42,103 bases of DNA, taken from Gemmatimonadaceae bacterium (lineage in GTDB: Bacteria > Gemmatimonadota > Gemmatimonadetes > Gemmatimonadales > Gemmatimonadaceae). Positions 18,689-36,800 of this stretch are shown in pieces. Location: positions 1-42,103 of the forward strand of contig JABFYH010000186.1 in assembly GCA_013361335.1 (NCBI GenBank). The letters run 5' to 3'. Position numbers and translations under genes: made by a program. Positions within the stretch are counted from its first letter, which is position 1, and each line of letters opens with the position of its first letter. The notes beneath the pieces are model-generated. The model was not told the origin of the DNA and ran no database searches. It saw nothing but the letters and a program-made list of their open reading frames with translations.

Positions 18689-19786
18689 CTACCGCTTCCG
18701 CGTCGCCAGCTCGAGCACGTCGAAGGTGCGGGAGACCTGCATCGCGAGCGCGCGCCCGCTCGTCTGCGGGGCGTAGGGATTGGGGTTCGGCACCCAGCGG
18801 TCCGCCCGCGCCGAAAGCTTGAGCAGCGTGCTGGCCGCGAGTCGGAGCCCGACGCCCGCCTCGGCGTCGGTGAAGTCGCTCTTGTCGGCGATCCAGCTGC
18901 TCGCGCCGAAGGGCATGATGTACGGGTAGTCGTTCCGCTCCACCCGCACCGCGGCGTACAGCCGCGGCGTGAAGGTGTACTTCGTCTCGGCGTACCAGGT
19001 GATCCCCGACAGCGACGCGCGGCCGGGCACGTCGTAGCGTCCCTGCGCCAGCTCGGCGAACGCCTCGAAGTAGCCGTGGCTGAGCTGGAGATCGGCGGCG
19101 ACGAGCCGCTGGTTGAAGTGGCGCCAGCCCTGGCCGGCGAGCAGCGTCGGCGCGAGCTCGCGGTTGAGGTACGGGCCGTTCGTGGCCGAGGCGCCGAGCC
19201 GGATTCCGGTGACCGGCGTGATGCCGACGCCGACCGCCGGCCGCGGCGCATGCGAGGGCTCGACGGTGTAGTCCTCGTGCGTGAGGGGCTTCGACAGCAC
19301 CGCGGCGCGCCAATCGAAGATCGACGCCGTGCCCGACACCTTCACGCCGAAGGGATACACGAGGGAGTATCCGTCGGGCGTGCCGATGAGCGGATTCCGG
19401 AACGACAGCCAGCGCGAGGAGAAGGTGCCGACGACGTGCGTCATCTTGCCCGCCTCCAACACGAACGCGTCGCTCGGGCTCCAGCGGGTGCCGTATTGCG
19501 TCACGTACAGCTCACTCCCTTCCTCGTGGCGGCCCGGCCCCGTCTCGGCGGAGAGCTGGCCGAACAGGACGACGTCGCGCCACGGCTCGGCCGCCGCCCA
19601 GAGTCCGATCCGCCCCATCGCGCCCGGCCGACCGTCGTTCCGCGCGAGCAGCGACGAGAGGGAATCCGTTTTCCAGAGTTCGGCGTCGAGCACGCCCTGA
19701 AAGAGAATGCCGCCCTGCGCCTGCACCGGCGGCGCGACGAGCAGTGCGAGCACGGCGAGCACGGCGAGCGTGAGGAGCTTACGCAT
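18689..19786 (-). CDS. Putative outer-membrane beta-barrel protein
   Basis: The 365-residue protein has a clear Sec signal peptide (LLTLAVLAVLALLVAPPVQA, cleavage about 23). The mature part alternates short amphipathic strands with aromatic girdle residues (RIGLWAAAEPWRDVVLFGQLSAETG, ITWYAETKYTFTPRLYAAVRVER, AEAGVGLRLAASTLLKLSARAD). It ends in ALAMQVSRTFDVLELATRKR, without a perfect terminal Phe. No named family is recognised; it resembles phosphate-selective-porin-like or carbohydrate-porin-like barrels in style only. Its start lies 8 bp inside the 3' end of the hybrid kinase gene, so it is coupled to that sensor and to the cupredoxin-like protein upstream. Confidence 0.72.
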   Translation of the reverse strand: MRKLLTLAVLAVLALLVAPPVQAQGGILFQGVLDAELWKTDSLSSLLARNDGRPGAMGRIGLWAAAEPWRDVVLFGQLSAETGPGRHEEGSELYVTQYGTRWSPSDAFVLEAGKMTHVVGTFSSRWLSFRNPLIGTPDGYSLVYPFGVKVSGTASIFDWRAAVLSKPLTHEDYTVEPSHAPRPAVGVGITPVTGIRLGASATNGPYLNRELAPTLLAGQGWRHFNQRLVAADLQLSHGYFEAFAELAQGRYDVPGRASLSGITWYAETKYTFTPRLYAAVRVERNDYPYIMPFGASSWIADKSDFTDAEAGVGLRLAASTLLKLSARADRWVPNPNPYAPQTSGRALAMQVSRTFDVLELATRKR

Positions 19787-22145
19787 GGGTGGCCGTCGGT
19801 GAGTAGCGTTGATCGAGCGCGCTCCGGATGAGCCGGCCCAGTCCCACCGGCGTGAACGGCTTCCGCAGCAGCGCGACGTCGGTGTCGAGCTCCAGCTTCA
19901 TGATCGCGTCGTCGACCCACCCGGTCATGTACACCACTCGCGCCGTGGGATGGCGGCGGCGCAGGCGCTCGGCGACCTGCGGGCCGCTGAGCTGGGGCAT
20001 CACGATGTCGGTGAGCAGCACGTCCACCCGCGGGAGCGCACGCGCGTGGGTGAGCGCGTCGATGCCGTCGCGGGCGACGACGACCGTGTAGCCGAGCGAC
20101 GTGAGCACCCGCTCGGCCATCCGGCGAATCGCGTCGTCGTCATCCACGAGGAGGATCGTCTCGGTGCCGCGCGGCGCGACGGCCGCTTCCGGTTCGCCCG
20201 ACAGCGGCGTTGCCTGCTCGACGGCGGAGGGCAGGCTGATGGTGAAGGTGGTGCCCTGCCCCAGCTGGCTCGCCACCGCGATGGTGCCCCCGCTCTGCGC
20301 CACGATCCCGTACACCGTGGCCAGACCGAGGCCCGTGCCCTTGCCCGGCTCTTTCGTCGTGTAGAACGGCTCGAAGATGCGGTCGCGCACGTCGGGCGGC
20401 ATGCCGATGCCGCTGTCGGTCACCCGCAGCGTCACCCGGGGAGCACCCGACGCGTCGCGCACGTGGCGCGTCGCGATCACGATCGCGCCCCCTTTGGGCA
20501 TCGCGTCGCGTGCGTTGATGACGAGGTTGAGGAGCACCTGCTCGAGCTGTCCCGGATCGGCCTTCACTCGCGCCGGCGAGCCATCGTCCTCGACGCGCAG
20601 GTCGATGTGCGACCCGATCAGCCGGCGAAGCATCCCCTCCATGCCCGTCACGGTCGCGTGCAGGTCGAGCACCTGGGGCTGGAGCACCTGCTTGCGGCTG
20701 AAGGCGAGGAGCTGGTGCGTCAGCGACGCGGCCCGCATGGCAGCGTCGCTCACTTCCTTGAGGTCGGGCGCCGCCTCGTGCTCCTTGCCGATCCGCTGGG
20801 CGGCGATCTGGGTGAAGCCGGAGATGACGGTGAGCAGGTTGTTGAAGTCGTGCGCGATGCCGCCGGCAAGGGTGCCCACGGCCTCGAGCTTCTGCGATTG
20901 GCGGAGCTGCGCCTCGCTCTCGCGCAGCGCGCGCTCCACCTGCTCGCGCTCGCGGATCTCGTCGGTGAGCACGGCGTTCGCGGCGGCGAGCTCGGTGCCG
21001 CGGCTCTCCAGCGCCGCACGCTCGCGCTCCAGCGCGTCCATGAGCTGCGTGAACGAGTCGCTCAGCGTCCGGATCTCGAGCGAGGCGTCGCTCGCGTCGA
21101 AGCGGACGGCGGGCCGATCGGCGCCGGCGCCCGAGCGCAGCGCGGAGATGAAGGCCCCCAACGGGCCGAGGAGCGAGCGCGAGAGAACGAATGCACCGAG
21201 GGCGGCGAGGAGCACGGCCAGCGCGCCGTAGAGCAGGAAGTCGCGGCCGAGGGCAGTGGCGAGAGCGTCGATCGTCGGTGTCAGCGGCTGCAGCAGCGTG
21301 AGCGTGATGTCGCTGCCGTGCTGCGTGGTGCCCATCGGTATCGTGGCCGCCAGGTACTCCGCGCGGCCGAGGGTGATGGACGCGCCGGTGGCCGGCCGCG
21401 CAGCGAGGAGTGCGGCGGTCTCCGCCGCCGGCAGGGTGCCGAGGATCACGTGGTTGCCGGCGGAGGCGACCACGGCGCCGTCGAAGTTGGCCCGCAGCGT
21501 GGCGACGAGAGTGGAGTCGACCCGCTGCCCGAACACCAGCGTGCCGATCGTGTAGCCGTCGAGGATCACCGGCGCGACGCCGACCGCGTAGAAGGCGTCG
21601 CCGAGCTCGAGACCGGAGAGGTACGACTCGCCGTGCGTGCTGGTGAACTCCGGGTCCAGCGCGTTGCGCACCGCGGAGAGCGACGAGATGTCCAGTCCCG
21701 TGGGGAGTCTGGTGGCACCGCGCACGTAGCCGGCAAAGACCTGTCCTTTCTCGTCGGTGGCGAGCAGGGCGCCCGCGTCGAGGTCCTGGCCGGCCTGCTC
21801 GAGCTCGCGGCGAACGGTGTTGGTGAGATCGGCCCGCACGACGCGGCTCGCGTCGTGCTCGACGCGATAGGTGGCGATGGCTGAGCGGAGGCTCGGGCTC
21901 TCGGCCAGGAGCGTGGCGGCGAGGACGAGCCGGCGCTGGTTCTCGCGCTGGAGGGAGACGAGCGCGCGCTGGTTGCGCGAGAGCTCGTCGGCGAGGAGGC
22001 GGTGGGTGCTGGCGCGGACCTGGATGCTGAGCGCGGCGAAGGCGCTACAGACGACGAGCGCCGCGAGCGCGGCGGTGAGCACGGCGAGGCGAATGCCGAG
22101 CGGCGTGCGGCGCAGACGGAGGCGGAGGTCGCGCAGCGCGGGCAT
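19779..22145 (-). CDS. Hybrid sensor histidine kinase with C-terminal receiver domain
   Basis: The 788-residue protein has TM1 at about 18-40, a periplasmic CACHE-like sensor of about 260 residues, TM2 at about 303-321, a linker with a coiled coil (about 372-420), and HisKA with H432 in GGIAHDFNNLL. The ATPase motifs are NLVINARDAM, DSGIGMP, FEPFYTTKEPGKGTGLGLAT. A receiver domain (663-785) carries D713 in LLTDIVMP and K762. The ATG at 22145 is preferred because it leaves 16 bp to the upstream gene and fits the membrane topology; an ATG at 22187 would overlap that gene. No separate output regulator is adjacent. Confidence 0.87.
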   Translation of the reverse strand: MPALRDLRLRLRRTPLGIRLAVLTAALAALVVCSAFAALSIQVRASTHRLLADELSRNQRALVSLQRENQRRLVLAATLLAESPSLRSAIATYRVEHDASRVVRADLTNTVRRELEQAGQDLDAGALLATDEKGQVFAGYVRGATRLPTGLDISSLSAVRNALDPEFTSTHGESYLSGLELGDAFYAVGVAPVILDGYTIGTLVFGQRVDSTLVATLRANFDGAVVASAGNHVILGTLPAAETAALLAARPATGASITLGRAEYLAATIPMGTTQHGSDITLTLLQPLTPTIDALATALGRDFLLYGALAVLLAALGAFVLSRSLLGPLGAFISALRSGAGADRPAVRFDASDASLEIRTLSDSFTQLMDALERERAALESRGTELAAANAVLTDEIREREQVERALRESEAQLRQSQKLEAVGTLAGGIAHDFNNLLTVISGFTQIAAQRIGKEHEAAPDLKEVSDAAMRAASLTHQLLAFSRKQVLQPQVLDLHATVTGMEGMLRRLIGSHIDLRVEDDGSPARVKADPGQLEQVLLNLVINARDAMPKGGAIVIATRHVRDASGAPRVTLRVTDSGIGMPPDVRDRIFEPFYTTKEPGKGTGLGLATVYGIVAQSGGTIAVASQLGQGTTFTISLPSAVEQATPLSGEPEAAVAPRGTETILLVDDDDAIRRMAERVLTSLGYTVVVARDGIDALTHARALPRVDVLLTDIVMPQLSGPQVAERLRRRHPTARVVYMTGWVDDAIMKLELDTDVALLRKPFTPVGLGRLIRSALDQRYSPTATHA

Positions 22146-22161
22146 CAGGACGGCCCCGACG

Positions 22162-22956
22162 TCAGCGCGAGAAGTTCTCGCCGCCACTCGGCAGCGGGAT
22201 GTTGAAGTCGAGCCGCGCCGTCTCGCCGGCGACGACGCGTACGGTGCGCATCACCGGCTTGATGCGCTCGTGCCAGCCGACGACGGTGTACTCGCCCGGG
22301 GGGACGTCCTCGATCGCGTAGTGGCCGGTGCGCGCCGGCTGCGCGAAGTACGGGTTGTCGAGCACGAGGATGACGGCGCTCATGTCCGAGTGGATGTGGC
22401 AGAACACCTGGACGACGCCGCTGCGATCGAAGGTCACCGACTTCGCGCTCCCCTTCGGGTAGCGGCCGAGGTCGAAGGTGCGCGCGCTGGAGAGGGAGAA
22501 GACGTTGTGGAAGACGTCGTCGGCGTTGGGAAAGTCGACGGTGGTGCCGCGGAGCACCGGCAGGACGTGCGGAGCGAAGCGCTCGTCGTCCTGGGTCATG
22601 GCGGCGTGGGCCGACGGAGCCGCGGGGGTGCCCGGCGCGTTCTGGAGGTAGAGGATGACGTTGCGGATCTCGTCGGTCTCGGAGGCGGGCGGGCGGCTGC
22701 CGGGGCCCGGGTCGGCGTAGATGCGGAAGCGCGGGCGGCGGCTGGCCAGCGCGCTCGAGATGACGACCTCGCCCTCGATGCGGCCGGTGGCCGGGCGCGC
22801 CGGTATCGCGGGGGGCGCCGGGAGGGCGGAGGGCAGCATCGCGAGCAGGCCGACGAGGGCCAGGGCGACCGGCGGTGAATACGACGACACGAGACTCCGG
22901 ACGTGGGGGGCGGTCTGTTCTAGACGACCGAATTGTGCGGCGGGGCACGTTCTCAC
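22162..22956 (-). CDS. Exported cupredoxin-like (plastocyanin/methylamine-utilization-type) protein
   Basis: The 264-residue protein has a hydrophobic export segment at about 29-47. The central domain shows the type-1 copper pattern: H150 in DDVFHNVFS and C186-x2-H189-x2-M192 in FCHIHSDM. A C-terminal segment (GHYAIEDVPPGEYTVVGWHE) resembles a carboxypeptidase-regulatory-like beta domain. Such proteins are often annotated as methylamine utilization protein or plastocyanin-like, but no amine dehydrogenase is present here. A GTG at 22890 gives a shorter leader and is a reasonable alternative start. The hybrid kinase begins 16 bp downstream, so this may provide a copper- or redox-linked signal; that is an inference. 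Confidence 0.78.
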   Translation of the reverse strand: MRTCPAAQFGRLEQTAPHVRSLVSSYSPPVALALVGLLAMLPSALPAPPAIPARPATGRIEGEVVISSALASRRPRFRIYADPGPGSRPPASETDEIRNVILYLQNAPGTPAAPSAHAAMTQDDERFAPHVLPVLRGTTVDFPNADDVFHNVFSLSSARTFDLGRYPKGSAKSVTFDRSGVVQVFCHIHSDMSAVILVLDNPYFAQPARTGHYAIEDVPPGEYTVVGWHERIKPVMRTVRVVAGETARLDFNIPLPSGGENFSR

Positions 22957-24199: not shown

Positions 24200-26041
24200 T
24201 CACTGCGGAGTGTGCCGCAGCACGAGATGCCCCGTCTCGGAGAGGCCCTTCGCGCCCAGCACCCCTTCCTTCGTGTTGAACTCGGCGCGCCACACGCCGG
24301 GCTCCTGCTGCTTCACCTTGACGACGAGCACCTGCGGCTGCTCCTGCGCCTCCGGCTGTCCCTCGTTCGACGAGCCGTTCGCCGCCACGATCTCGTCGCC
24401 GGCGGCCTGCCGGAACTGCGTGAAGAAGCGCATCCACTCGTGCATGTCCGCGTCGTGTGGCGGAGGAAATCCCTTCGCGAAGGTGAAGCGCACGATCTCC
24501 GTCGGCGGATCGATCCGGAGCGTCACCTCCACGCTGTCCGTCACGAGCGTCTTCTGCTGCTCGTCGCGGCCGGCGCAGCTCGTGCCCACGGTATCGCGGG
24601 CGACGTTCGCCCACTCGACGTGCAGCACCCTGACCGAGCCGTGGCGTGAGCCGCGCTTGGACAGCGACGCATCCGCGATGCTGAACGGGCTTCGCGCGTC
24701 GAGGAGCGCGCCACCGTTTCCGGCGAACATCGCGTCGAACACGTCCTTGAACGGCCGGCCGCTGATCTCCAGCGCCTGGTAGTTGAGCGCGGCGTCGGCT
24801 CCGCGGTCCTTGCCGTTGTACTGCGCCGTGGACGCCACCTGGAACCGGCTCGCGCCGCTCGGCAAGCGGCTCTCGACGTCCGACACCAGCTCCACCTCCC
24901 AGCGGTTGCAGCTCTCTTCGGCCTTGTCGATCACCTTCCAGAGGTCCGGCAAGGTGGTCGGTCCGCCGCCCAGCAGCTCGAACTCCCGGTAGATCGCGAT
25001 GACGCGCACGTAGGCGGCGAGGTCGTGCTGCTGTCGGCACTGATCCTCGGCGCGCTTGCCCATCGTCGCGGCCACGTTGGCCATGATCCGCGCCGCCGAC
25101 GCGCTCCCCTGCACCATCCGCGTCCGGAGATCGGGATCGGTGGTCTTCACCGCGGCCGACGTGCTCGCGATGTCGCCGCCCAGCATCGGGACATCGGTCT
25201 CATCCACGACGCTGAAGAGCTGGAGATTCCGCAGCCAGCCGAGGTAGAATCGCAAGGCGCACGCGGCCATCCGATCGTCCGTCTCGGCGATCTTCATCGT
25301 GGGCGCCACGATGCCGTCGTAGTACTCGATCATCGTCGAGCGAAAGGCTTCGCCGAGCGCGGCGGGGTCGTAGCTCCCGTCCTCGCCTGTCAGGATGGCC
25401 TTTCGCTCCTTGCCGATGACCTCGGCGAGCTTGGCCTCGAGCCGGGCTTCATGCGCCGACGCGTAGAGCAGGTGGATACGTCCCGGATCCGAGGGGGGCG
25501 CCTTGCCGAAGCCGTAGCCGCTGAAATGAAGGAGCTGGAGGTGCATCTCGAGCGAGTCGCCGCGCGCGGGATAGAGATGCGTGTCCCGGCCGTCGGCGAT
25601 CCACGCGAACGCCAGGCGCTCGTTCGCCGGCACGGGCTTCTCCACCTCGATCGTGAGCCGAACCGGCCGGTCGAAGCGCAGCCCTTCCGGCTCGAGCTGC
25701 ACCGTGCCCACCGCTCCACCCTGCTCGAGCGGCAACCCCTCCACGCGCTTGACGGGGATCATCGAGATCCGCTCGCGCGCGTGGAGAGCGCCCCTCGGGA
25801 TCTCGAGCGTGAAGAAGGTGCCGTCCTCGCCGGTGGCGGTGATCGTCGCGCCCGCGGAGTCCACCGTGCGCGTGACGCGGTTCGTCGTGTCGAGCGCGAG
25901 CGTCACTTTCACCGGGTCGTGCCGTTCGTCGAGCCACTTCACCCCGGTCTCCGCCACGGCGCTTCCACCAGTCCGCTCGTGGCAGCCGCTCGCCGCCGCG
26001 ACGCACAGCATCGTCGCGGCGACGGAGACGAGATGGCGCAT
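24200..26041 (-). CDS. Large lipoprotein with a ZU5-like N-terminal domain
   Basis: The 613-residue protein begins with a lipoprotein leader ending ASGC20. Residues from about 60 to 150 look like a ZU5-type beta domain: GATITATGEDGTFFTLEIPRGA, then GTVQLEPEGLRFDRPVRL and a closing LHFSGYGFG. The remaining part, about 430 residues, is mainly helical and unrecognised, with an acidic Gln/Glu-rich stretch (SSNEGQPEAQEQPQ) before a final beta segment. Its ATG shares one base with the stop of the OmpA-family gene (TGATG), so the two proteins are coupled and may work together at the outer membrane. Function unknown. Confidence 0.72.
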   Translation of the reverse strand: MRHLVSVAATMLCVAAASGCHERTGGSAVAETGVKWLDERHDPVKVTLALDTTNRVTRTVDSAGATITATGEDGTFFTLEIPRGALHARERISMIPVKRVEGLPLEQGGAVGTVQLEPEGLRFDRPVRLTIEVEKPVPANERLAFAWIADGRDTHLYPARGDSLEMHLQLLHFSGYGFGKAPPSDPGRIHLLYASAHEARLEAKLAEVIGKERKAILTGEDGSYDPAALGEAFRSTMIEYYDGIVAPTMKIAETDDRMAACALRFYLGWLRNLQLFSVVDETDVPMLGGDIASTSAAVKTTDPDLRTRMVQGSASAARIMANVAATMGKRAEDQCRQQHDLAAYVRVIAIYREFELLGGGPTTLPDLWKVIDKAEESCNRWEVELVSDVESRLPSGASRFQVASTAQYNGKDRGADAALNYQALEISGRPFKDVFDAMFAGNGGALLDARSPFSIADASLSKRGSRHGSVRVLHVEWANVARDTVGTSCAGRDEQQKTLVTDSVEVTLRIDPPTEIVRFTFAKGFPPPHDADMHEWMRFFTQFRQAAGDEIVAANGSSNEGQPEAQEQPQVLVVKVKQQEPGVWRAEFNTKEGVLGAKGLSETGHLVLRHTPQ

Positions 26042-27258
26042 CACCGCTTCACCAGCTCGACGCGGCGGTTCTGCTGGCGACCCTCGGCCGTGGAGTTCGA
26101 TGCGATCGGTTTCGTCGACCCCAGCCCCTTCGCGTCGAGGCGAGCGGCGTCGATCCCCTTGCTCACCAGATAGTCGCGCACCGCCACCGCCCGCTGCTCT
26201 GAGAGGGCGAGGTTGGCGCTCGCGCTGCCGACGCCGTCGGTGTGCCCCTCGATCGTCAGCGACAGGTCGCCGTGCTCCTGAAGCATCGTCACGATCTCCT
26301 TCAGCGTCGGCGTCGACTCCGGACGGATGACGTCCGAGCTCACGTCGAAGAGAATGCCGTGGGTCGCCACGCGGCCGGTGGAGGCGATGGCGTCGTAGAT
26401 CTTCTTGCCGCCGGCGGCGACGCGAATCGCTCCGACGTACGCCGGCGACTCGTCGCTCGCCGGCACGCGGACCCAGATCTTGTTGGCGCGGCCGAGGTCG
26501 GCGTTCGGCACGTTGGCCACGCGCTTGTCGCCCATGTACACCTTCACGTACTTGCCGTCCGCCATCACGCGAATCGGCACGAACTGGTCGGCGAACTTCT
26601 CCTGGCCGACGTCGGTCATCGACTCGTGGCCCATCGCGAGAATGCCGCCCTTCGTCCAATTGACCTGCACCACCGGGTTCTGCGCCGACGGCCGTTCCGT
26701 GAAGCGCACCGTCACCTCGCCCCAGGTATTGCGACGCGCGCCGTGATAGACGTCCATCTCGAGCGTGAACCGCGGCGGCAGCACGTCTGGGAGCGGGATG
26801 GCGATCTCGCCGGCGCCGGTCGAGCGCAGGTAGCGCGAGCCACGCCACTCGGCGATCTCCATGTTGCCCGACACCAGCTCGAGCCGCTGCGGGAAGTTGC
26901 CCACCTCGTCCTTCGTGTAGTCCTCGTAGAACAGCACCTTTTCGCCCGGCACGAAGTCGTAGTTGAGCCACGCGCCTTCGCCGGGCGTGGAGCGACCGCT
27001 TGCGGCGGCGTCGTTCTCGCCCTCGATCCGAACCTTCTTGCCGGCGGCGCGCGCCTTGTCGGCGCACGCGCGATCCCTCACCTGACAGGTGATGACCTCT
27101 TCCGCCTTGTCGACGCCTTTGTCCATCGCCTGATCAGTGCGCGTCTCCACACGCTCCTTCACCTTCTCCTTGAGGCGATCCTTCCAGCCCTGCGCGGGAG
27201 ATGCCGTAGGGGCGGCGATGAGCAGCGCGGCGGCGGCGAAGCAGAGACACGTCTTCAT
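26041..27258 (-). CDS. OmpA-family outer-membrane/peptidoglycan-associated protein
   Basis: The 405-residue protein has a signal peptide (CFAAAALLIAAPTASPAQ), then a charged helical region with two Cys (about 25-75). A jelly-roll/LamG-like middle domain follows (FEDY-type start at LFYEDYTKDEVGNFPQRLELVSG, about 108-280). The OmpA C-terminal peptidoglycan-binding domain (about 295-405) shows ILFDVSSDVIRPESTPTLKEI, IEGHTDGVGSASANLALSEQRA and NRRVELVK. There is no N-terminal 8-strand barrel, so anchoring probably involves partners. AGGAG lies 7 nt before the ATG. It heads a cluster with a lipoprotein and a small secreted protein, a layout that suggests an envelope complex. Confidence 0.85.
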   Translation of the reverse strand: MKTCLCFAAAALLIAAPTASPAQGWKDRLKEKVKERVETRTDQAMDKGVDKAEEVITCQVRDRACADKARAAGKKVRIEGENDAAASGRSTPGEGAWLNYDFVPGEKVLFYEDYTKDEVGNFPQRLELVSGNMEIAEWRGSRYLRSTGAGEIAIPLPDVLPPRFTLEMDVYHGARRNTWGEVTVRFTERPSAQNPVVQVNWTKGGILAMGHESMTDVGQEKFADQFVPIRVMADGKYVKVYMGDKRVANVPNADLGRANKIWVRVPASDESPAYVGAIRVAAGGKKIYDAIASTGRVATHGILFDVSSDVIRPESTPTLKEIVTMLQEHGDLSLTIEGHTDGVGSASANLALSEQRAVAVRDYLVSKGIDAARLDAKGLGSTKPIASNSTAEGRQQNRRVELVKR

Positions 27259-27265
27259 GGTAATG

Positions 27266-27270
27266 CTCCT
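27266..27270 (-). promoter_or_regulatory. Shine-Dalgarno AGGAG of the OmpA-family gene
   Basis: Read on the minus strand, AGGAG ends 7 nt before the ATG at 27258. The nine bases GATCAGGAG recur exactly in front of the small secreted protein gene (24173-24165), so the two ribosome binding sites of this cluster share an extended sequence. Confidence 0.5.
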
Positions 27271-27315
27271 GATCTGGGGAAAGCGTTGCGTGGATGAGGT
27301 GCGGCTGCCTGCGCG

Positions 27316-27834
27316 CTATCGCGGCGCGAGGATGCACCAGGTGCATCGGCCGGCGAAGATCTCGTGGACTCCGGTGCCGGGGTTCCGGCGCATCCTGGCC
27401 TCCAGCGCGGCGGCCAGATCGGCCAGAGGCAGTAGAGCCACGCCGTCCACGACGCGCACGCGCTCGGAGATGACCACCGGGCGCGCGACGCGCAGAAGGC
27501 AGTCGCTGCATCCGCCGACGCCGACGGCGTAGAGGCGTCGCCCCTCCTGCCGCAGGCGCGGCACCTCGGCCGGACGGGCGCCGTCCACGGCCCGAAGCAG
27601 CGCGTCGACGGGCACGAGCACCTCGTCGCCCTCGGCGACCACGACGTCGGCGAGGAGGCGGCCATTCATCTCGATGCGGGCGTGGTCGGCGGCGGGACGC
27701 CGGGCGGGCCGCTGAGGACCGGCGGGTGGGGCGCCGGTTCCGAGCAGCGCCGCCGCGACGAGCAGCGCGCGTCGTGCGGCCGAGCTGGGTGAGCTGAGCA
27801 CGGGGAGTAGGGAGAGAGATCGCCGGCACGACAC
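27316..27834 (-). CDS. Small exported protein with two Cys pairs, unknown function
   Basis: The product of about 172 residues has a hydrophobic leader (ARRALLVAAALLGTGAPPAG). The mature part contains a Cu-amine-oxidase-N-like or stalk-like beta pattern (IEMNGRLLADVVVAEGDEVLVPVDALLRAVD and VDGVALLPLADLAAALEARM). It also has CSDC and CTWC, two CxxC pairs that could form disulfides or bind metal. The GTG at 27834, with GAGG 4 nt upstream, is preferred. ATG codons at 27861 and 27879 are in frame, but the latter lies inside the 11-bp repeats in front of the divergent SARP gene. It lies 57 bp upstream of the OmpA-family gene on the same strand. No named family recognised. Confidence 0.62.
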   Translation of the reverse strand: MSCRRSLSLLPVLSSPSSAARRALLVAAALLGTGAPPAGPQRPARRPAADHARIEMNGRLLADVVVAEGDEVLVPVDALLRAVDGARPAEVPRLRQEGRRLYAVGVGGCSDCLLRVARPVVISERVRVVDGVALLPLADLAAALEARMRRNPGTGVHEIFAGRCTWCILAPR

Positions 27835-27867
27835 CTTGCCTCGTGTCGGGGCGCGGGCCATTCTAGG

Positions 27868-27900
27868 CGCCCCGATCACGCCCCGATCACGCCGCGATCA
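27868..27900 (+). promoter_or_regulatory. Three tandem 11-bp direct repeats, candidate SARP operator
   Basis: The unit CGCCCCGATCA occurs at 27868-27878 and 27879-27889. A third copy with one change (CGCCGCGATCA) is at 27890-27900, one base before the ATG of the SARP-type gene. A 7-bp core (CGATCAC) repeats with 4-bp spacing, so the period is 11 bp, one helical turn. That is the geometry of known SARP binding sites in Streptomyces. The repeats lie between divergent genes and could control the regulator and the envelope cluster. No Shine-Dalgarno is left in front of the gene. Confidence 0.55.
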
Positions 27901-27901
27901 C

Positions 27902-30787
27902 ATGGCCCCCGAAATCCGGTTTCACACGCTCGGTGGCTTGCAGCTCGAGGGCTCGAGCGGCCCGTTGCGTGGCGCCGCGGCCCAACGGCGCTCGCTCGCG
28001 CTGCTGGCCGTCATCGCCGGCGCGCGGGATCGCGGCATCAGCCGCGACACGCTTGCCGCGATGCTCTGGCCGGAGAGCGACGACGAGCACGCACGCCGCG
28101 CGCTCGCGCAAACGCTCTATCGGGTGCGGCAGGAGCTCGGCGCCGAGGTCGTCAGCGGCGGCGATCGGCTGCGGCTCGATCCGGCGCACCTCGCCGTGGA
28201 CCTGGTCGAGCTCGACGACGCGGCGGCGCGCGGGGATGCCGACCGCGCGGCGGCGCTGTACCGCGGTCCCTTCCTCGAGGGGTTCGCGCTGCCGGGTGTG
28301 CCGGAGCTGTCGCGATGGATAGACGAGGAGCGCGGCCGCGTCGCCGCTCGCTACGCGGACGTCCTGCGGCGCGCGGCGGCCGCCGCCACGGCCAGTGGCG
28401 ACCTGACCGCGGCCGTTCGGTGGTGGCGGGCGCTGCTGGCGGTGGATCCGCTCGACGCCCGCGTCGTCGTGGAGCTCATGCGCACGCTGGCCGCCGCCGG
28501 CAACGCGAGCGGGGCGCGCCAGGCGGCACGTATCCACGAGACACTACTTCGCCAGGAGCTGGAGGCGCCGCCGGATCCCATTGTCGCGGCCGCCCTGGCG
28601 CGGCTCGACGATGCGCCGCCGCCGGTCGCGGTCGCGGTGCCGCCGGCGGCATCACCGACCGAGCTGCCGCGCACACCGGCACCGCCACTCGTCGCCAGTG
28701 CGCCCGCAGCTGCGTCAGCGCCACGCGTGCGGCGGCGCCGTCTCGTGCGACAGATGGCCGTTGCGGTCGGGATCGTGGCCACCGCGGTCCTTGCTGCGGC
28801 GCAACTCTGGTCACGCCATCGAGAGCTGGAGCCGTTGCGCGTCGCCGTCGGTGAGATCGCCGACCTCACCGGCAGCGACAGCTCGCGCGCCGCGCGCGCC
28901 CTGCCGGAGCTCCTCACCACAGGGCTGGGGCGCTACCGCCCGCTCGAGGTCGTGAGCCGCGACCGCCTCTACGACGTGGCCGCGCAGCTCGGCGCCTTGT
29001 CGGGGGCGGGCGGGCTCACGCATGCGGCACGACAGACCGGCGCCGGTTTGCTGGTGGACGGCGCGCTCTATCGGCGCCCCGACAGCACCTTCCGGCTCGA
29101 CCTCCGCCTGCTCGACCTCGAGCGTGGGACCGTGCGCGCGTCGTATCAGCTCGAGGGGGCCGATGCGTTCGCCCTCGCCGAGCGAGCGACGGCGCGCGTG
29201 GCGGCGGACGTCGGCGCGTCGCGCCCGGTCAACGCGTCCGACGGGTTGGAGACGACGCGCTCCCTCACGGCGCTCCACCTCTACGAGCAGGGCCTGCGCG
29301 TCTTCTATACCGGCGACGGCCCGAGCGCCGAGCGCCTGTTCGCCGCGGCCCTCGCCGAGGACAGCACCTTCGCCATGGCCGCGTACTTCGCGTTTCGGAG
29401 CGCGCACGACATCCGCGAGCGCGCCCACGCCTATCTGGCATTGGCGATGCGGCACGCGGCGCGGACCACGGAGCGCGAACGCCTCGTCATCCGCGCGACG
29501 AGCGCTGCCGAGTTCTACGACCCGGCGCGCGTCGCGCTCGCGGAGACGCTCGCGGCGCGCTTCCCGGGTGAACCGATCGCGCACGTCTTGCTCGGCGAGG
29601 CCCTGGTGGAGACGAGCGGAGACTTTGCCGGAGCGCGAGTCGCCTTCCGGCAGGCGTTCACCATGGATTCGCTCGGGTTGCGCGACGGCGTGGTCCGCTG
29701 CTCCGCGTGCGACGCGATGCATGGGCTGGTGAGCGCGTACATGCACGCCGACTCCCTGGCCGGCGCGGAGCGTGAAGCGGAACAGTGGACGATCCGGCAG
29801 CCGCAGTCCGCCGCGGCCTGGCTCACCCTGGCGAGCGTGGCCGCCATGCGCGGCGACTCGACGCGCGCCGCCGCCGCGTTCCGCATGCGGCGGTCCATCC
29901 TGCCGTATGCGCCCGAAGCCCTGCTGTTCGGCGTTTCCCTCGCGCTGCGCACGGGGGACTTCGCGCGGGCGGAGCACCTGCTGGACAACGTCATCCAGAC
30001 GGGCACGCCGGCGGAGGGGCTCGAGGCCCGCTGGTGGCTGATCAATGTGCGGCGCTACGAGGGGCGGCTGGCCGAGGCATTGGCGCTGGCGCAGCGGCTC
30101 GTGGCGGAGAATCCCGCGGACGCAACAGCGCGACTTCTTCTTGCGCAGGTGCTGTACGAGGCAGCGCGCCCGCGCGACGCGCTCGCCGAGTTCGATTCGG
30201 CCGCCACGCTCCAGCTGCACGAGTCGGATGGCGTCCCCTCAGTCACGGCACGACGCCGGAGCTGGGCGATGACGCATCGCGTCACCGTGCTCGCCGCGCT
30301 CGGTGACACCGCGGGCATCGCGTCGCTCGTCGAGCCGCTTCGCGTCACTGGGGCGAGGAGCGGGTATGCGCGGGATCACGTGATGTATCACTACGCGCGT
30401 GGATTGCTGCTGGCGGCACGCGGGAGCCAGGGCGCGGCGGACGAGCTGCGCAGCGCCATCTTTTCGCCGAACCTCGGCTACACCCGCGTGAACGTGACCC
30501 TCGCCTCCCTCTATTTGGCGCGGGGACAGCCCGAGGAGGCCGTTCCTCTGCTGCGCGCGGCCCTTCAGGGCTCGCTGGAGGCGTCGAACCTGTACGTGAC
30601 GCACACGGAGGTGCACGCGCTGCTCGCACGCGCCTTCTCGCTGATGCGATCGCCGGACAGTGCCGCGGTTCACCGCGCGTACGTGACGCGCGCGCTCGTC
30701 GGCGCGGATGCCGCAGGTCGAGCGCGCTTCGCGGCACTTCCACGGCTGGCGTATGCGCTGGAGGGGTCGGGCGGCCGGGTGCGCTGA
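27902..30787 (+). CDS. Membrane-anchored SARP/BTAD transcriptional regulator with periplasmic FlgO-like and TPR region
   Basis: The 961-residue protein starts with a winged-helix DNA-binding domain (1-95; IRFHTLGGLQLEG, RGISRDTLAAMLWPESD, ALAQTLYRVRQELG). A BTAD helical domain follows (about 98-235), the classic SARP arrangement. A Pro/Ala linker leads to RRRRLVRQ and one membrane segment (about 284-303), so the N-terminus should be cytoplasmic and the last 650 residues periplasmic. That part begins with a FlgO/TolB-N-like alpha/beta domain (LRVAVGEIADLTG to about 450) and continues as TPR-type helices. The layout resembles one-component ToxR-like regulators. The ATG directly follows three 11-bp repeats. 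The glucan synthase gene begins 38 bp downstream on the same strand. Confidence 0.82.
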   Translation: MAPEIRFHTLGGLQLEGSSGPLRGAAAQRRSLALLAVIAGARDRGISRDTLAAMLWPESDDEHARRALAQTLYRVRQELGAEVVSGGDRLRLDPAHLAVDLVELDDAAARGDADRAAALYRGPFLEGFALPGVPELSRWIDEERGRVAARYADVLRRAAAAATASGDLTAAVRWWRALLAVDPLDARVVVELMRTLAAAGNASGARQAARIHETLLRQELEAPPDPIVAAALARLDDAPPPVAVAVPPAASPTELPRTPAPPLVASAPAAASAPRVRRRRLVRQMAVAVGIVATAVLAAAQLWSRHRELEPLRVAVGEIADLTGSDSSRAARALPELLTTGLGRYRPLEVVSRDRLYDVAAQLGALSGAGGLTHAARQTGAGLLVDGALYRRPDSTFRLDLRLLDLERGTVRASYQLEGADAFALAERATARVAADVGASRPVNASDGLETTRSLTALHLYEQGLRVFYTGDGPSAERLFAAALAEDSTFAMAAYFAFRSAHDIRERAHAYLALAMRHAARTTERERLVIRATSAAEFYDPARVALAETLAARFPGEPIAHVLLGEALVETSGDFAGARVAFRQAFTMDSLGLRDGVVRCSACDAMHGLVSAYMHADSLAGAEREAEQWTIRQPQSAAAWLTLASVAAMRGDSTRAAAAFRMRRSILPYAPEALLFGVSLALRTGDFARAEHLLDNVIQTGTPAEGLEARWWLINVRRYEGRLAEALALAQRLVAENPADATARLLLAQVLYEAARPRDALAEFDSAATLQLHESDGVPSVTARRRSWAMTHRVTVLAALGDTAGIASLVEPLRVTGARSGYARDHVMYHYARGLLLAARGSQGAADELRSAIFSPNLGYTRVNVTLASLYLARGQPEEAVPLLRAALQGSLEASNLYVTHTEVHALLARAFSLMRSPDSAAVHRAYVTRALVGADAAGRARFAALPRLAYALEGSGGRVR

Positions 30788-30825: not shown

Positions 30826-33800
30826 GTGAACACGACATCGTACCGCCTCCGGTTCCCCTGGCAGCCCGCGCCGGTCGAGGAACCGACCGAGCCCATCCTT
30901 GGCGAGCTGTTCGGCACCGACCGGCTCGCGCAGCATGCGCGGCAGCTCGCCCGCCGCCAGCGTACCGCACCGCCTGAGCTCTCGCATCGCACCTGGCGTC
31001 GCCGCAAAGGCTCGCTCCTCGCGCGCCTCGACGCCACGGAGCAGGTGCTCCAGCGCATCCACGCGAACCTCGCCCACATCACCAGCGAGGGGATCGGCGT
31101 CAGCCCCGCCGGCGACTGGCTGCTCGACAACTACCACGTCGTCACCGCGCAGATCGCCGAGATCCGCACCACGCTGCCGGCCGACTACTACGCCGAGCTG
31201 CCGAAGCTCGCCGAGTCGAGCACCTTCGCCGGCTATCCGCGCATCTACGAGATCGCGATCGAGCTGATCGCCCACACCGACGGCCGGCTCGCCGAGTCGA
31301 CGCTCGAGCTGATGGTGCGCGAGTATCAGCGGGTCACCCCGCTCTCCATGGGCGAGCTGTGGGCCGTGCCGGCGATGCTGCGCATGGGATTCCTGGAGAA
31401 CATCCGGCACATGGCCCAGCGCGCTGGCCGCGACGCCGCCGACACCGTCGAAGCCGACGCGTGGGTGTCGCGCCTGCTCGCCGCCGACGAAGAGCCGCCC
31501 CCCGCGCTCGCGCGCGCCCTGGCGGAGTTCGTCGACCAGTCGCGCGAGCTCACGCCGACCTTCCTGACGCGCTTCCTGCAGCAGATGCGCAGCCGCCGCG
31601 CCGACTTCACCCCGCTCCTCTGGCTGGAGCAGTGGATCGGCGAGGACGTGATGAGCGTCGAGGAGGCGGTGCAGCGCTCGACCCAGCGCCTCGCGCTCTC
31701 GTCGCTCGTCATGGCGAACAGCATCGCCAGCCTGCGCGCGATCGGGAACATCGACTGGCGCGACTTCGTCGAGGACACGAGCCTCGCCGAGGCGATCCTC
31801 CGCCGCGATCCGGCGGGCGTCTACGCCACGATGACCTTCGGCACGCGCGACCGCTACCGCCACGTCGTGGAGCGGCTCGCCAAGCGCAGCCACCTCTCGG
31901 AGCTCGAGGCGGCCACCGCCGCGATCAACGCCGCCGCGGCCGCCGCCGGCCGCGCTGGTCCCGCCGCGCTGGAGGCGCACGTCGGCTACCACCTCGTCGA
32001 CGCCGGGCTCCCTGCCCTGGAAGCCACGGTCGGCTACCGCAAACCGATCGCCGAACGCCTGCGGCACATCGCGTACGCCGCGCCGAGCGCCACGTATCTG
32101 AGCGCCGTCTCGCTGCTCACGGCGGGCGCGCTCAGCATCCTGCTGCGACCGCTCCACGGCGCGGACGGCTTCGGGCTGCTGCTCGCGCTGGGGCTCGCGC
32201 TCGTGCCGGCGGCCGACATCGCCGTCGCGATCGTCAACCAGCTCGTCACCCTCCTCTTCCCACCGAGCCGCCTGCCGCGCCTCGACTTCACGCGCCAGGT
32301 GCCGGCGACGCATCGCACCGCGGTCGTCGTGCCGATCCTGCTCGGCAGCGTCGATGCCGTGCGCGAAGCGCTCGAGCATCTCGAGGCGCAGTATCTCGCG
32401 AACGCCGATCCGGAGATCCGGTTCGCCCTGCTCGGCGACTTCCTCGACGCCGATCAGCAGACGATGCCCGGCGACGCCGAGATCGTCGCGGCGGGAATCG
32501 AGGGCGTGCAGGCGCTCAACGCCTCGTACGGCGAGAGCGACGCGGCGACGGCGCCCTTCTACTTCTTCATGCGCCCACGCCGGCTCAACGCGGTCGACCA
32601 CCGCTGGATGGGCTGGGAGCGCAAGCGCGGCAAGCTCGCCGACTTCAACGCCTGGGTGCTCGGCGGCGGCGGCGAGGCCTTCTCGGTCACGGAGGGCGAG
32701 CTCGGCTGGCTGCACACCGTTCGCTTCGTCATCACTCTCGACTCCGACACCGTGCTGCCGCGCGACGCGGCCGTTACGCTGATCGGGACGATGGCGCATC
32801 CCCTCAACCGCGCGCGGTTCGACGAGACCGCCGGCCGGGTGACGCGCGGCTACGGCATCATGCAGCCGCGCGTGAGCGTGTCGCTCGCCAGCGCGAACTG
32901 CTCGCGCTACGCGGCGATCTTCGCCGGCCATCCGGGGGTGGACCCGTACACGACCGCGGTGTCCGACGTCTATCAGGACCTGTTCGCCGAAGGCACCTAC
33001 ACCGGCAAGGGGATCTACGACGTCGCGGCGTTCGAGGAGGCCACGGCGGGTCGCTTCCCCGAGAACTCGCTGCTCAGCCACGATCTGATCGAGGGCTCGT
33101 TCGCGCGCGCCGCGCTGGTCACGGACGTCGAGGTGTTCGACGACTACCCGACGCGCTATCTCACCGCGACGCGCCGGATGCACCGCTGGATCCGCGGCGA
33201 CTGGCAGCTCCTGCCCTGGCTGGTGTCGGAGATTCCCGGCCCGCGCGGCCGCGGCGTGAATCCGCTCGCGCCGGTGTCGCGCTGGAAGATGCTCGACAAC
33301 ATGCGCCGCAGCGTGACGCCGGTGCTCACGCTGGCGTGGCTCGTCGCGGGGTGGACGGTGCTGCCCCACGCCGGGCTGGGATGGGCGGGTGCCGTCCTCG
33401 CGGCCTTCGTCTTCCCCTGGCTCGCGCCCTTCGCCGTCGCCGCGCTGCGTCCCCCGGCCGACGAGTCGTGGCGGCCGTACTACGCGGCCCTCCGGCAGGA
33501 TCTCTCCAGCAGCGTGCAGCAGTTCGCCGTGGCGCTGGTGATGCTGCCGCATCAGGCGATCGTCGCCGCCGACGCGATCGGGCGCACGGTGTACCGCGTC
33601 GCCGTCTCGCACCGGAACATGCTGGAGTGGCAGACGGCCTCGCAGGCGGAGCAGGCGACGGCCGGGGGGCGGGCGCCGGTGTGGCGGCGGATGGCCTCCG
33701 CCGTGGGGCTCGGCATCGCCGCGCTGCTGCTCATGTGGCGGCATGCCCTGTCGCACGCCACCTCCCCCGTGGGGTGGACGCTGCTCGGCGTGCTCACCGT

Positions 33801-36800
33801 CTGCTGGCTGCTCTCGCCGGAGATCGCGTCGGCGCTGAGCGCGCCGCGAGCGCGCACGGAGCTCGAGCTCGGCGCCGCGGAGCGCGAGCGCGCGCTCGGC
33901 TATGCGCGCGCGCATTGGCGCTACTTCCAGCAGCTCGCCACCGCCGGCACGCAGTGGCTCATCCCGGACAACTTCCAGGAGACGCCGGTGCCGGTCGTCG
34001 CGCCGCGCACGTCGCCCACCAACATCGGGCTCCAGCTCCTGGCGATCATGTCCGCGCACGACCTCGGCTTCATCGACACGCCCGAGCTGATCGAGCGGCT
34101 GGAGCGCGTGCTGGCGACGATGGACCGGATGGCGAAGATCCGCGGTCACTTCATGAACTGGTACGACCTCGCCGACCTTCGCGTGCTCGACCCGCCGTAC
34201 GTCTCGGCGGTGGACTCCGGCAACCTCGCAGGCCATCTGATGGCGTTGGCGGTGGGGTGCACCGAGGTCGACGAGGCCGGCGATGCGGAGCGCGCGCGGC
34301 TGACGGCGATCGCCGAACGGGCGCGCGCGATGGCGATGGCGATGGACTTCCGGCTGTTCTACGACACGCGCCGGCGGCTGATGTCGATCGGCTACGACGT
34401 GCGCACCGGCCGGCTCGACGAGTCCGCGTACGATCTGCTCGCGTCCGAGGCACGGCTGGCGAGCTTCGTCGCCGTGGCCAAGGGCGACGTCCCGGTGGAG
34501 CACTGGTTCCACCTCGGCCGGACGCTGACCACGGCAGCGAACGCCACGGCGCTCGTGTCGTGGAGCGGCAGCATGTTCGAGTACCTCATGCCGCTGCTCG
34601 TCATGGCGTCGCGTCCCTTCTCGCTGCTCGACCAGACGCATCGGGCCGCGGTGCAGCGGCAGATCGCGTATGCCGTCGCGCGCGGCACGCCGTGGGGGAT
34701 CTCCGAGTCCGCCTACAACATGCGCGACCGGCACGACACGTATCAGTACCGCGCGTTCGGTGTCCCCGATCTCGGCCTCAAGCGCGGGCTCGCGTCGGAC
34801 GTCGTGGTCGCGCCGTATGCCACCGCGCTCGCCCTCGCGGTGGACCCGCATGTCGCGATGGCGAATCTCGCGACGCTGGAGACCCTCGGCGCGCTGGGGG
34901 CGTACGGCTTCTACGACGCGCTCGACTACTCGCGCCCCGATCCGGACTCCACCTTCGCCGTCGTGCGCGCCTTCATGGCGCACCACGTCGGCATGAGTCT
35001 CGCCGCGCTCGACAACGTGCTGCATCTCGACGGCGGTGAAGGGATCTGGCAGCGCCGCTTCATGCGCGACCCCGCGGTACGGGCGTCGGAGCTGCTGCTC
35101 GACGAACGGGTGCCGCGCCGCTACACCACGATGCCGGCGCAGCCCGATCAGCCGACCGACGCCTACGTGCGGCCGCCGCGCGCCCGCGCGGTGGTGCGCG
35201 AGTACGAGGACGCCGACACCCACGAGCCGCACGTCGGCCTGCTGGGCGGGCGGGCCTATTGCACCCTGCTCACGAACGCGGGGGGCGGCTACTCGCGCGT
35301 CGGCGCCATGGACGTCTACCGCTGGCGCGCCGACGCGACGAAGGACGAGACGGGACATTTCATCTACCTGCGCGACCTGTCCGCCGGCAGCGTGTGGTCG
35401 GCCGCCCACCAGCCGGTACGCGCCCCGACTTCCTTCTATCGCGCCTCGTTCGCCGCCGACCGCGCGGTGTTCACGCGGGTCGACGGACCGGTCGAGACGC
35501 GCACGGAAGTCGTCGTCGTGCCGCGCGACCGGGCGGAGATCCGTCGCGTGACCGTGTGCAACCAGTCCCGCGCGACGCGAGAGCTGGAGATCACCAGCTA
35601 TGGTGAGATCGTCCTCACCGACGCCGGCGCCGATCGCGCGCACCCGGCCTTCCAGAACCTGTTCGTCGAGACCGAGTGGCTCCCCGAGCTCGGCGCGGTG
35701 CTGGCGAGCCGCCGCCCCCGCTCGGCGATGGAAAAGCGGCCGTGGTGCGCGCACGTGCTCGCGGTGGGTCCGGAGCTGACCGGTGAGATCACCTGCGAGA
35801 CCGACCGGGCGCGCTTCATCGGTCGTGGACGCACGGTGCATGCGCCCGCTGCGCTCGACGAAGGCGCGTCGCTCTCCGGCACCGCGGGCGCCGTGCTCGA
35901 TCCGATCGCCTCGCTGCGCGCGCGGCTGCGGCTCGAGCCTGGCCGCTCGGCGACCGTCGCCTTCACCACCATCGTCGCCGACTCGCGCGAGCAGGCCATC
36001 CAGGCGGTCGACCGCTATCGCGATCTCGAAGCCTCGCGGCGGGCGCTCTCCCTCATGGGCACCGAGTCGCAGATCGAGCTCCGCGACCTCGACATCACCC
36101 CCGCCGACGCCGCGCTGTACCAGGATCTGGCCGGCGCGCTGATCTATCCACGTGACTCGCTCCGCGCGCCGCGGGCCGAGCGGCTCGCCAACCGGCGTGG
36201 GCAGACGGCGCTGTGGGCGCACGGCATCTCCGGCGACTGGCCCATCGTGCTGGCGACGATCCGCGACCCCAACGGCCTGCCGAGCATTCGCCAGCTCCTG
36301 TCGGCGCACAAGTACTGGCGCATGAAGGGGGTGCGCAGCGATCTCGTCATCCTGAACGCGAAGGGCCCCTCCTACATCCAGGACCTGCAGGACCAGATCA
36401 CGACGATGGTCGTGTCGTCGAGCGAAGGAGGCATCCTCGAGCGGCCGGGCGGCGTGTTCGTCCGTCGCGTGGACGTGCTGCCCGAGGAAGACGTGTCGAT
36501 GCTGCGCGCCACGGCCGCCATTCACATCGTCTGCGACGGCGTCGGGCTCGGCGAGATCGTCGGCGCTACCGACGACCAGCGCATCGTCACCGCGCGGCCC
36601 ACGGCTGTGGTGCCGCGCGCCGTGCGGCGCACGCGGCCGGCGCCGGCGGAGGGCAACGGATTCGGCGAGCTGACCGAATCGCGCGACTACGGCATCGACG
36701 TCGACGGCGCGCATCTGCCCCCCGCACCGTGGGCGAACATCGTCGCCAACCCGAACGCCGGCTTCTGCGTGACGGAGCGCGGCGGCGGCTTCACCTGGAC

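Follow-up and report, generated by a model that had tools for sequence, protein, structure and literature searches.

The stretch of DNA analyzed here (the window, 42,103 nt) carries three 11-bp direct repeats directly before the start codon of a BTAD regulator gene. The comparison of homologous loci indicates that these repeats are very probably the binding site of the regulator itself. The best explanation, to which a probability of roughly 70% is given, is that a membrane-anchored SARP-fold regulator represses its own gene and controls, probably by activation, a divergently transcribed gene for an exported protein. A large fraction of the BTAD genes in Gemmatimonadota show the same operator arrangement, each time with its own core, which an earlier sequence-only reading of the window had missed. 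A broader view is tentative and has somewhat less than an even chance, i.e., that Gemmatimonadota possess a large family of membrane-anchored SARP-fold regulators serving as one-gene envelope switches, with private operators and symmetric bidirectional promoters, in which occupancy would turn the regulator down and the divergent exported protein up.

Repeats and regulator in the window

The repeats, i.e., GCCCCGATCAC, GCCCCGATCAC, and GCCGCGATCAC, occupy 27869-27901 and abut the ATG at 27902. Exact CGATCAC cores stand at 27873-27879, 27884-27890, and 27895-27901, with the 4-bp spacers GCCC and GCCG between them. The sequence-only reading had given the positions as 27868-27900, which is correct to within 1 base at each end, and its three 7-bp cores, 4-bp spacers, and contact with the ATG agree exactly with the sequence. 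The features of the operator and the regulator, with their basis, are as follows.

27869..27901, + strand: putative operator of three 11-bp direct repeats (sequence, tandem-repeat ranking, genome uniqueness, chance expectation)
27902..30787, + strand: BTAD regulator gene, 961 aa (Pfam, predicted structure, Foldseek, hydropathy)
Regulator residues 1-240: SARP-type DNA-binding domain and BTAD domain (predicted structure, Pfam)
28082..28138, + strand: recognition helix, residues 61-79 (AlphaFold helix with mean pLDDT 96, top covarying positions)
Regulator residues about 281-303: predicted transmembrane segment (hydropathy)

The operator was the top-scoring tandem repeat of the window (score 61) and its only perfect triple 7-mer when periods 7 to 20 were scanned. 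By chance, 0.02 perfect triples are expected per 42 kb in a first-order Markov model at period 11. The MAG (3.75 Mb, 84% complete) was searched for CGATCAC repeats at 11-bp spacing, as the sequence-only reading had proposed. The triple occurred only here, even with 3 mismatches permitted, and the one other exact double lay in the coding region of a MacB-like permease ORF. A regulon elsewhere in the MAG was set aside, since there was no second triple and this sole double is coding sequence. Rfam and tRNA scans of the window gave no matches.

In the regulator, Pfam recognized BTAD (5e-10, above the cut-off) and Trans_reg_C (4e-4, below the cut-off). The structure predicted for its first 210 residues had a pLDDT of 96, and the top Foldseek matches were EmbR (2ff4, the best, TM 0.65) and AfsR (8hvr, 8k60). 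The winged helix plus BTAD layout recognized earlier was borne out by these domain and fold matches. A phmmer search against the PDB with the window protein alone gave no match, and profiles gave matches. The C-terminus contains a TPR region, although no NB-ARC domain was matched by Pfam in the regulator. No second regulator of this type was found in the MAG. The predicted membrane anchor had escaped the sequence-only reading; a membrane segment was predicted in 29 of the 37 operator-bearing proteins long enough to judge.

Period and core covariation in Gemmatimonadota BTAD genes

Upstream regions of BTAD homologues were gathered in three sets, i.e., 94 homologues, 65 non-overlapping Gemmatimonadota loci, and 72 held-out loci. 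The search for relatives was seeded with five sequences, and by name the relatives were nearly all Gemmatimonadota. The held-out loci came from other genomes of the same class, and they are independent sequences, not a different lineage. Kinship was handled via de-duplication, partial Mantel tests, and the held-out loci only. Thresholds and start codons were set by script.

The 3-unit score at 11 bp averaged 13.2 in the 94 homologues, with 34 of them at 15 or above, whereas the other periods from 7 to 24 averaged 9.5-10.3 and placed at most 7 there. The 11-bp mean was 13.0 in the 65 loci (23 vs at most 4) and 13.1 in the 72 held-out loci (21 vs no more than 3 for any other period tested). The 42 control genes taken from the same genomes had no excess at 11 bp. 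With the core generalized to nnnTnAn, three 11-bp-phased units were found in 86 of 232 upstream regions of Gemmatimonadota BTAD genes, and other periods from 8 to 14 reached this threshold 0-1 times per set. One such locus (L166) belongs to a cultured relative, Roseisolibacter sp. H3M3-2. In the 86 aligned operators, the distance between the last repeat and the start codon favored 9-10, 20-21, or 0 bp, which tends to keep the start codons in the same helical phase as the repeats.

This GC-rich window contains many short imperfect tandem repeats, and the triple might be considered one more of them, arisen by chance and without function. This can practically be dismissed, because a perfect triple is so rarely expected, the same architecture appeared in two further sets, and the phylum-wide pattern already contradicts it. 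It should be noted that 63% of the homologues were below the operator threshold used. No close orthologue of the regulator was found; in the nearest homologue (45% identity), the triple was not convincing (p = 0.19).

Across proteins, the core varied with the recognition helix (Mantel p = 2e-4). This held when BTAD-domain similarity was removed, too, and given the helix, BTAD-domain similarity added nothing to the prediction of the core. An unbiased scan of 91 domain positions by 7 core base positions ranked Q70-base 6 and R66-base 5 first. The top six also held A67-base 7, Y73-base 5, and A69-base 3; the remaining pair, residue 59-base 4, lies outside the helix, which counts against the best explanation. 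R66, A69, and Q70 (and Y73) were taken as the specificity residues of the helix.

A residue-to-base code was then taken by eye from the discovery set and tried on 27 held-out operators, where all five predictions held (one-sided p 0.001 to 0.043). K or R at 69 went with G3 in 5/5 (p = 0.0016), D70 with a base other than A at 6 in 3/3 (p = 0.0014), H or R at 66 with C5 in 14/15, Q70 with A6 in 15/15, and N66 with T5 in 3/4. The window regulator agrees with the code, i.e., R66-C5, A69-A3, and Q70-A6. The covariation and the held-out predictions strongly suggest binding of each regulator to the operator at its own gene. The earlier interpretation as a SARP-style operator is supported by the phylum-wide 11-bp period, the held-out core-helix covariation, and the SARP fold. 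In four loci (L045, L061, L161, and L211), the operators have GTTA cores, not nTCA, and the recognition helix has N in place of R66.

The repeats might be bound by another regulator, e.g., a PhoB- or PhoP-like response regulator recognizing 11-bp TCA repeats. The TCA core and the 11-bp spacing are indeed common to PhoP sites, and at afsS the site of AfsR overlaps that of PhoP (PMC10972967). However, a common regulator would keep one core, and here the core varies by gene and follows the helix of the adjacent protein, so this possibility is very improbable.

If the regulator binds its own operator, three DNA-binding domains would line up along the 11-bp units, with one domain for each turn of the DNA, and the recognition helix of each would read the core via residues 66, 69, and 70.

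Predicted promoters and divergent genes around the operator

The sites and genes upstream of the operator are as follows.

27836..27841, + strand: -35-like TTGCCT of the regulator's own putative promoter (17-bp spacer to CATTCT, TTG enriched in homologues)
27859..27864, + strand: -10-like CATTCT of the same promoter, predicted start about 27871 (fixed A-N3-T in homologues)
27860..27865, - strand: -10-like TAGAAT of the putative divergent promoter, predicted start about 27853 (symmetric -10 in homologues)
27316..27834, - strand: divergent gene, small protein with signal-peptide-like N-terminus (ORF and codon-position GC)
26041..27258, - strand: OmpA-domain protein, next gene in the divergent cluster (Pfam OmpA 1e-23)

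A generic sigma-70 scan of 27200-28500 was negative, and the promoter proposed here rests on comparison. In 66 of 86 loci, the A-N3-T of the -10 preceded the operator, in exact register by steps of one unit. At the exact operator spacing, it was present in 17 of 27 held-out and 39 of 59 discovery loci against a background of 2.9%. The window operator is 1 bp nearer to the -10 than the commonest spacing. TTG occupied the corresponding -35 position in 18/35 by one homologue count, and in 17/86 vs a mean of 2.1 by another. The -10 shared by the two directions in homologues reads TAnnnTA(G); it was fully symmetric, i.e., TAnnnTA, in 27 of 86 loci and partially symmetric in others. In the window, the divergent TAGAAT overlaps the forward CATTCT, and no -35 was recognizable in the predicted divergent promoter.

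Because the -10 sits at a fixed offset, the operator would reach from about +3 to about +31 relative to the predicted promoter of the regulator. On the opposite strand, it would cover about -21 to -49 of the predicted divergent promoter. Activator SARPs have their site over the -35. The position seen here, downstream of the regulator's own -10, was missed by the sequence-only reading.

The start of the divergent gene is probably the GTG at 27834 or 27801. An ORF at 27255-27665 (- strand) was set aside as the divergent gene, since the frame at 27316 has coding-type codon-position GC. Pfam gave no match for the product, and its export was predicted from sequence. Divergent neighbors stood at 27:5 in operator-bearing loci vs 14:14 in non-operator BTAD loci (p = 0.006), by a simple neighbor-strand heuristic. 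By an equally simple signal-peptide and lipobox rule, 28/38 divergent genes were predicted to be exported vs 7/48 control genes (p = 4e-8). Export was also frequently predicted for the minus-strand neighbors of non-operator BTAD loci (19/48), which weighs somewhat against the best explanation, but it was rarer there than at operator loci (p = 0.002). The domains of the divergent genes vary, i.e., cupin, globin, PD40 propeller, GDSL lipase, OMP barrel, or none. In one homologous locus (L170:886-1338, - strand), the gene beside the operator is a globin with a signal-peptide-like N-terminus.

Autorepression would be expected because the operator lies directly downstream of the regulator's own predicted start site, where its occupancy should block RNA polymerase. 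The same occupancy would cover the divergent -35 region, and control of the exported-protein gene is expected because that promoter has no -35 of its own. Activation is the most likely form of this control, favored by the missing -35 and the fixed spacing, and some room is left for repression of the divergent gene. Control in both directions and a block of the regulator's start site had both been suggested before, and they gain support from the operator's fixed distance downstream of the -10 and from the divergent-gene association.

The operator might serve the regulator's promoter only, with the divergent gene as a chance neighbor. The forward promoter elements with their 17-bp spacer, the operator just downstream of them, and its uniqueness in the genome fit such pure autorepression. 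However, the divergent arrangement is enriched specifically in operator-bearing loci, the divergent genes are strongly biased to exported proteins, and the -10 is symmetric, which makes this explanation unlikely. One point against the best explanation is that a repressor that simply blocks would need no such exact spacing.

It is also conceivable, but with still lower probability, that the operator is a SARP-type activator site for the divergent gene only, that the forward -10 belongs to this gene, and that the regulator has its promoter at another place. The operator would overlap the -35 region, at about -21 to -49, as in afsS, and the first base of the reverse -10 is conserved more often than that of the forward one. 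The TTG enrichment 17 bp upstream of the forward -10, the start codons close behind the operator, and a core orientation relative to the divergent promoter opposite to that of AfsR speak against it.

The preferred reading, i.e., autorepression with control of the divergent gene, includes a sensory part. The C-terminal TPR region is presumably extracytoplasmic. Because there is a single predicted membrane segment in addition to this region, the switch probably responds to an envelope signal.

Relation to known regulators and adjoining genes

AfsR of Streptomyces coelicolor shares the SARP fold with the window regulator. The AfsR recognition helix, placed in the major groove, contacts the same base pairs (in CGTT(T/C)A), although in a residue alignment made by conserved anchors the individual contacts are not exactly coincident. 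The afs box of afsS consists of two repeats; its center is at -29.5, and it lies over the -35 of the target promoter. The present operators mostly comprise three repeats and follow closely behind the -10 of the regulator itself. Relative to the divergent promoter, their cores face the opposite way from those at afsS, so the mode of contact must differ from that of AfsR, and the AfsR activation mode cannot simply be transferred. The window regulator also has a predicted membrane segment instead of NB-ARC; of the NB-ARC/NOD plus TPR architecture of large SARPs such as AfsR, it shows the TPR part. It is a SARP-fold, i.e., SARP-like, regulator and not a canonical SARP activator, because its site does not lie over the -35 in the AfsR orientation.

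The sites of DnrI, ActII-ORF4, and PimR are three heptameric direct repeats, with 4-nt spacers in PimR (PMC10972967). Those sites activate antibiotic genes, whereas here a differing private core stands before each regulator's own gene. EmbR of Mycobacterium tuberculosis, the best structural match, has the same winged helix and BTAD domain, but its C-terminus is an FHA domain in place of the predicted membrane segment and TPR region. An N-terminal OmpR-type winged helix is also common to CadC and ToxR, with weak sequence match. CadC and ToxR are membrane-anchored one-component regulators with a single membrane segment, such as is predicted for the window regulator, and they are not known to have a BTAD domain. 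The C-terminal region of the window regulator differs from theirs.

The E. coli pairs acrR/acrA and soxR/soxS have bidirectional promoters with a shared symmetric -10 and a regulator gene on one side, and the regulator site favors one direction and can repress the other (PMC12825309). In contrast, a single regulator family shows the present arrangement at many loci, together with tandem repeats matched to the helix. Regulated bidirectional promoters were called hardly studied by the authors of that work, and many putative natural examples are offered here. Literature searches covering open-access papers found no published account of these regulators in Gemmatimonadota. A predicted binding site can now be assigned to a widespread regulator family, and a likely target can be named for each regulator. 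Core and helix vary naturally, and this provides a testable partial recognition code for SARP-type helices; if true, this simple residue-to-base match would be a recognition code for SARP/OmpR-type helices.

Downstream of the regulator gene, a 2751-aa ORF with GH94 and glucoamylase domains (30826-39081, + strand) resembles cyclic beta-glucan synthases. It begins 39 bp past the regulator gene and may have its own promoter, because a TACTAT -10-like site is present in the gap. On the other side, 19779-22187 (- strand) encodes a hybrid histidine kinase that combines a dCache sensor with a response-regulator domain.
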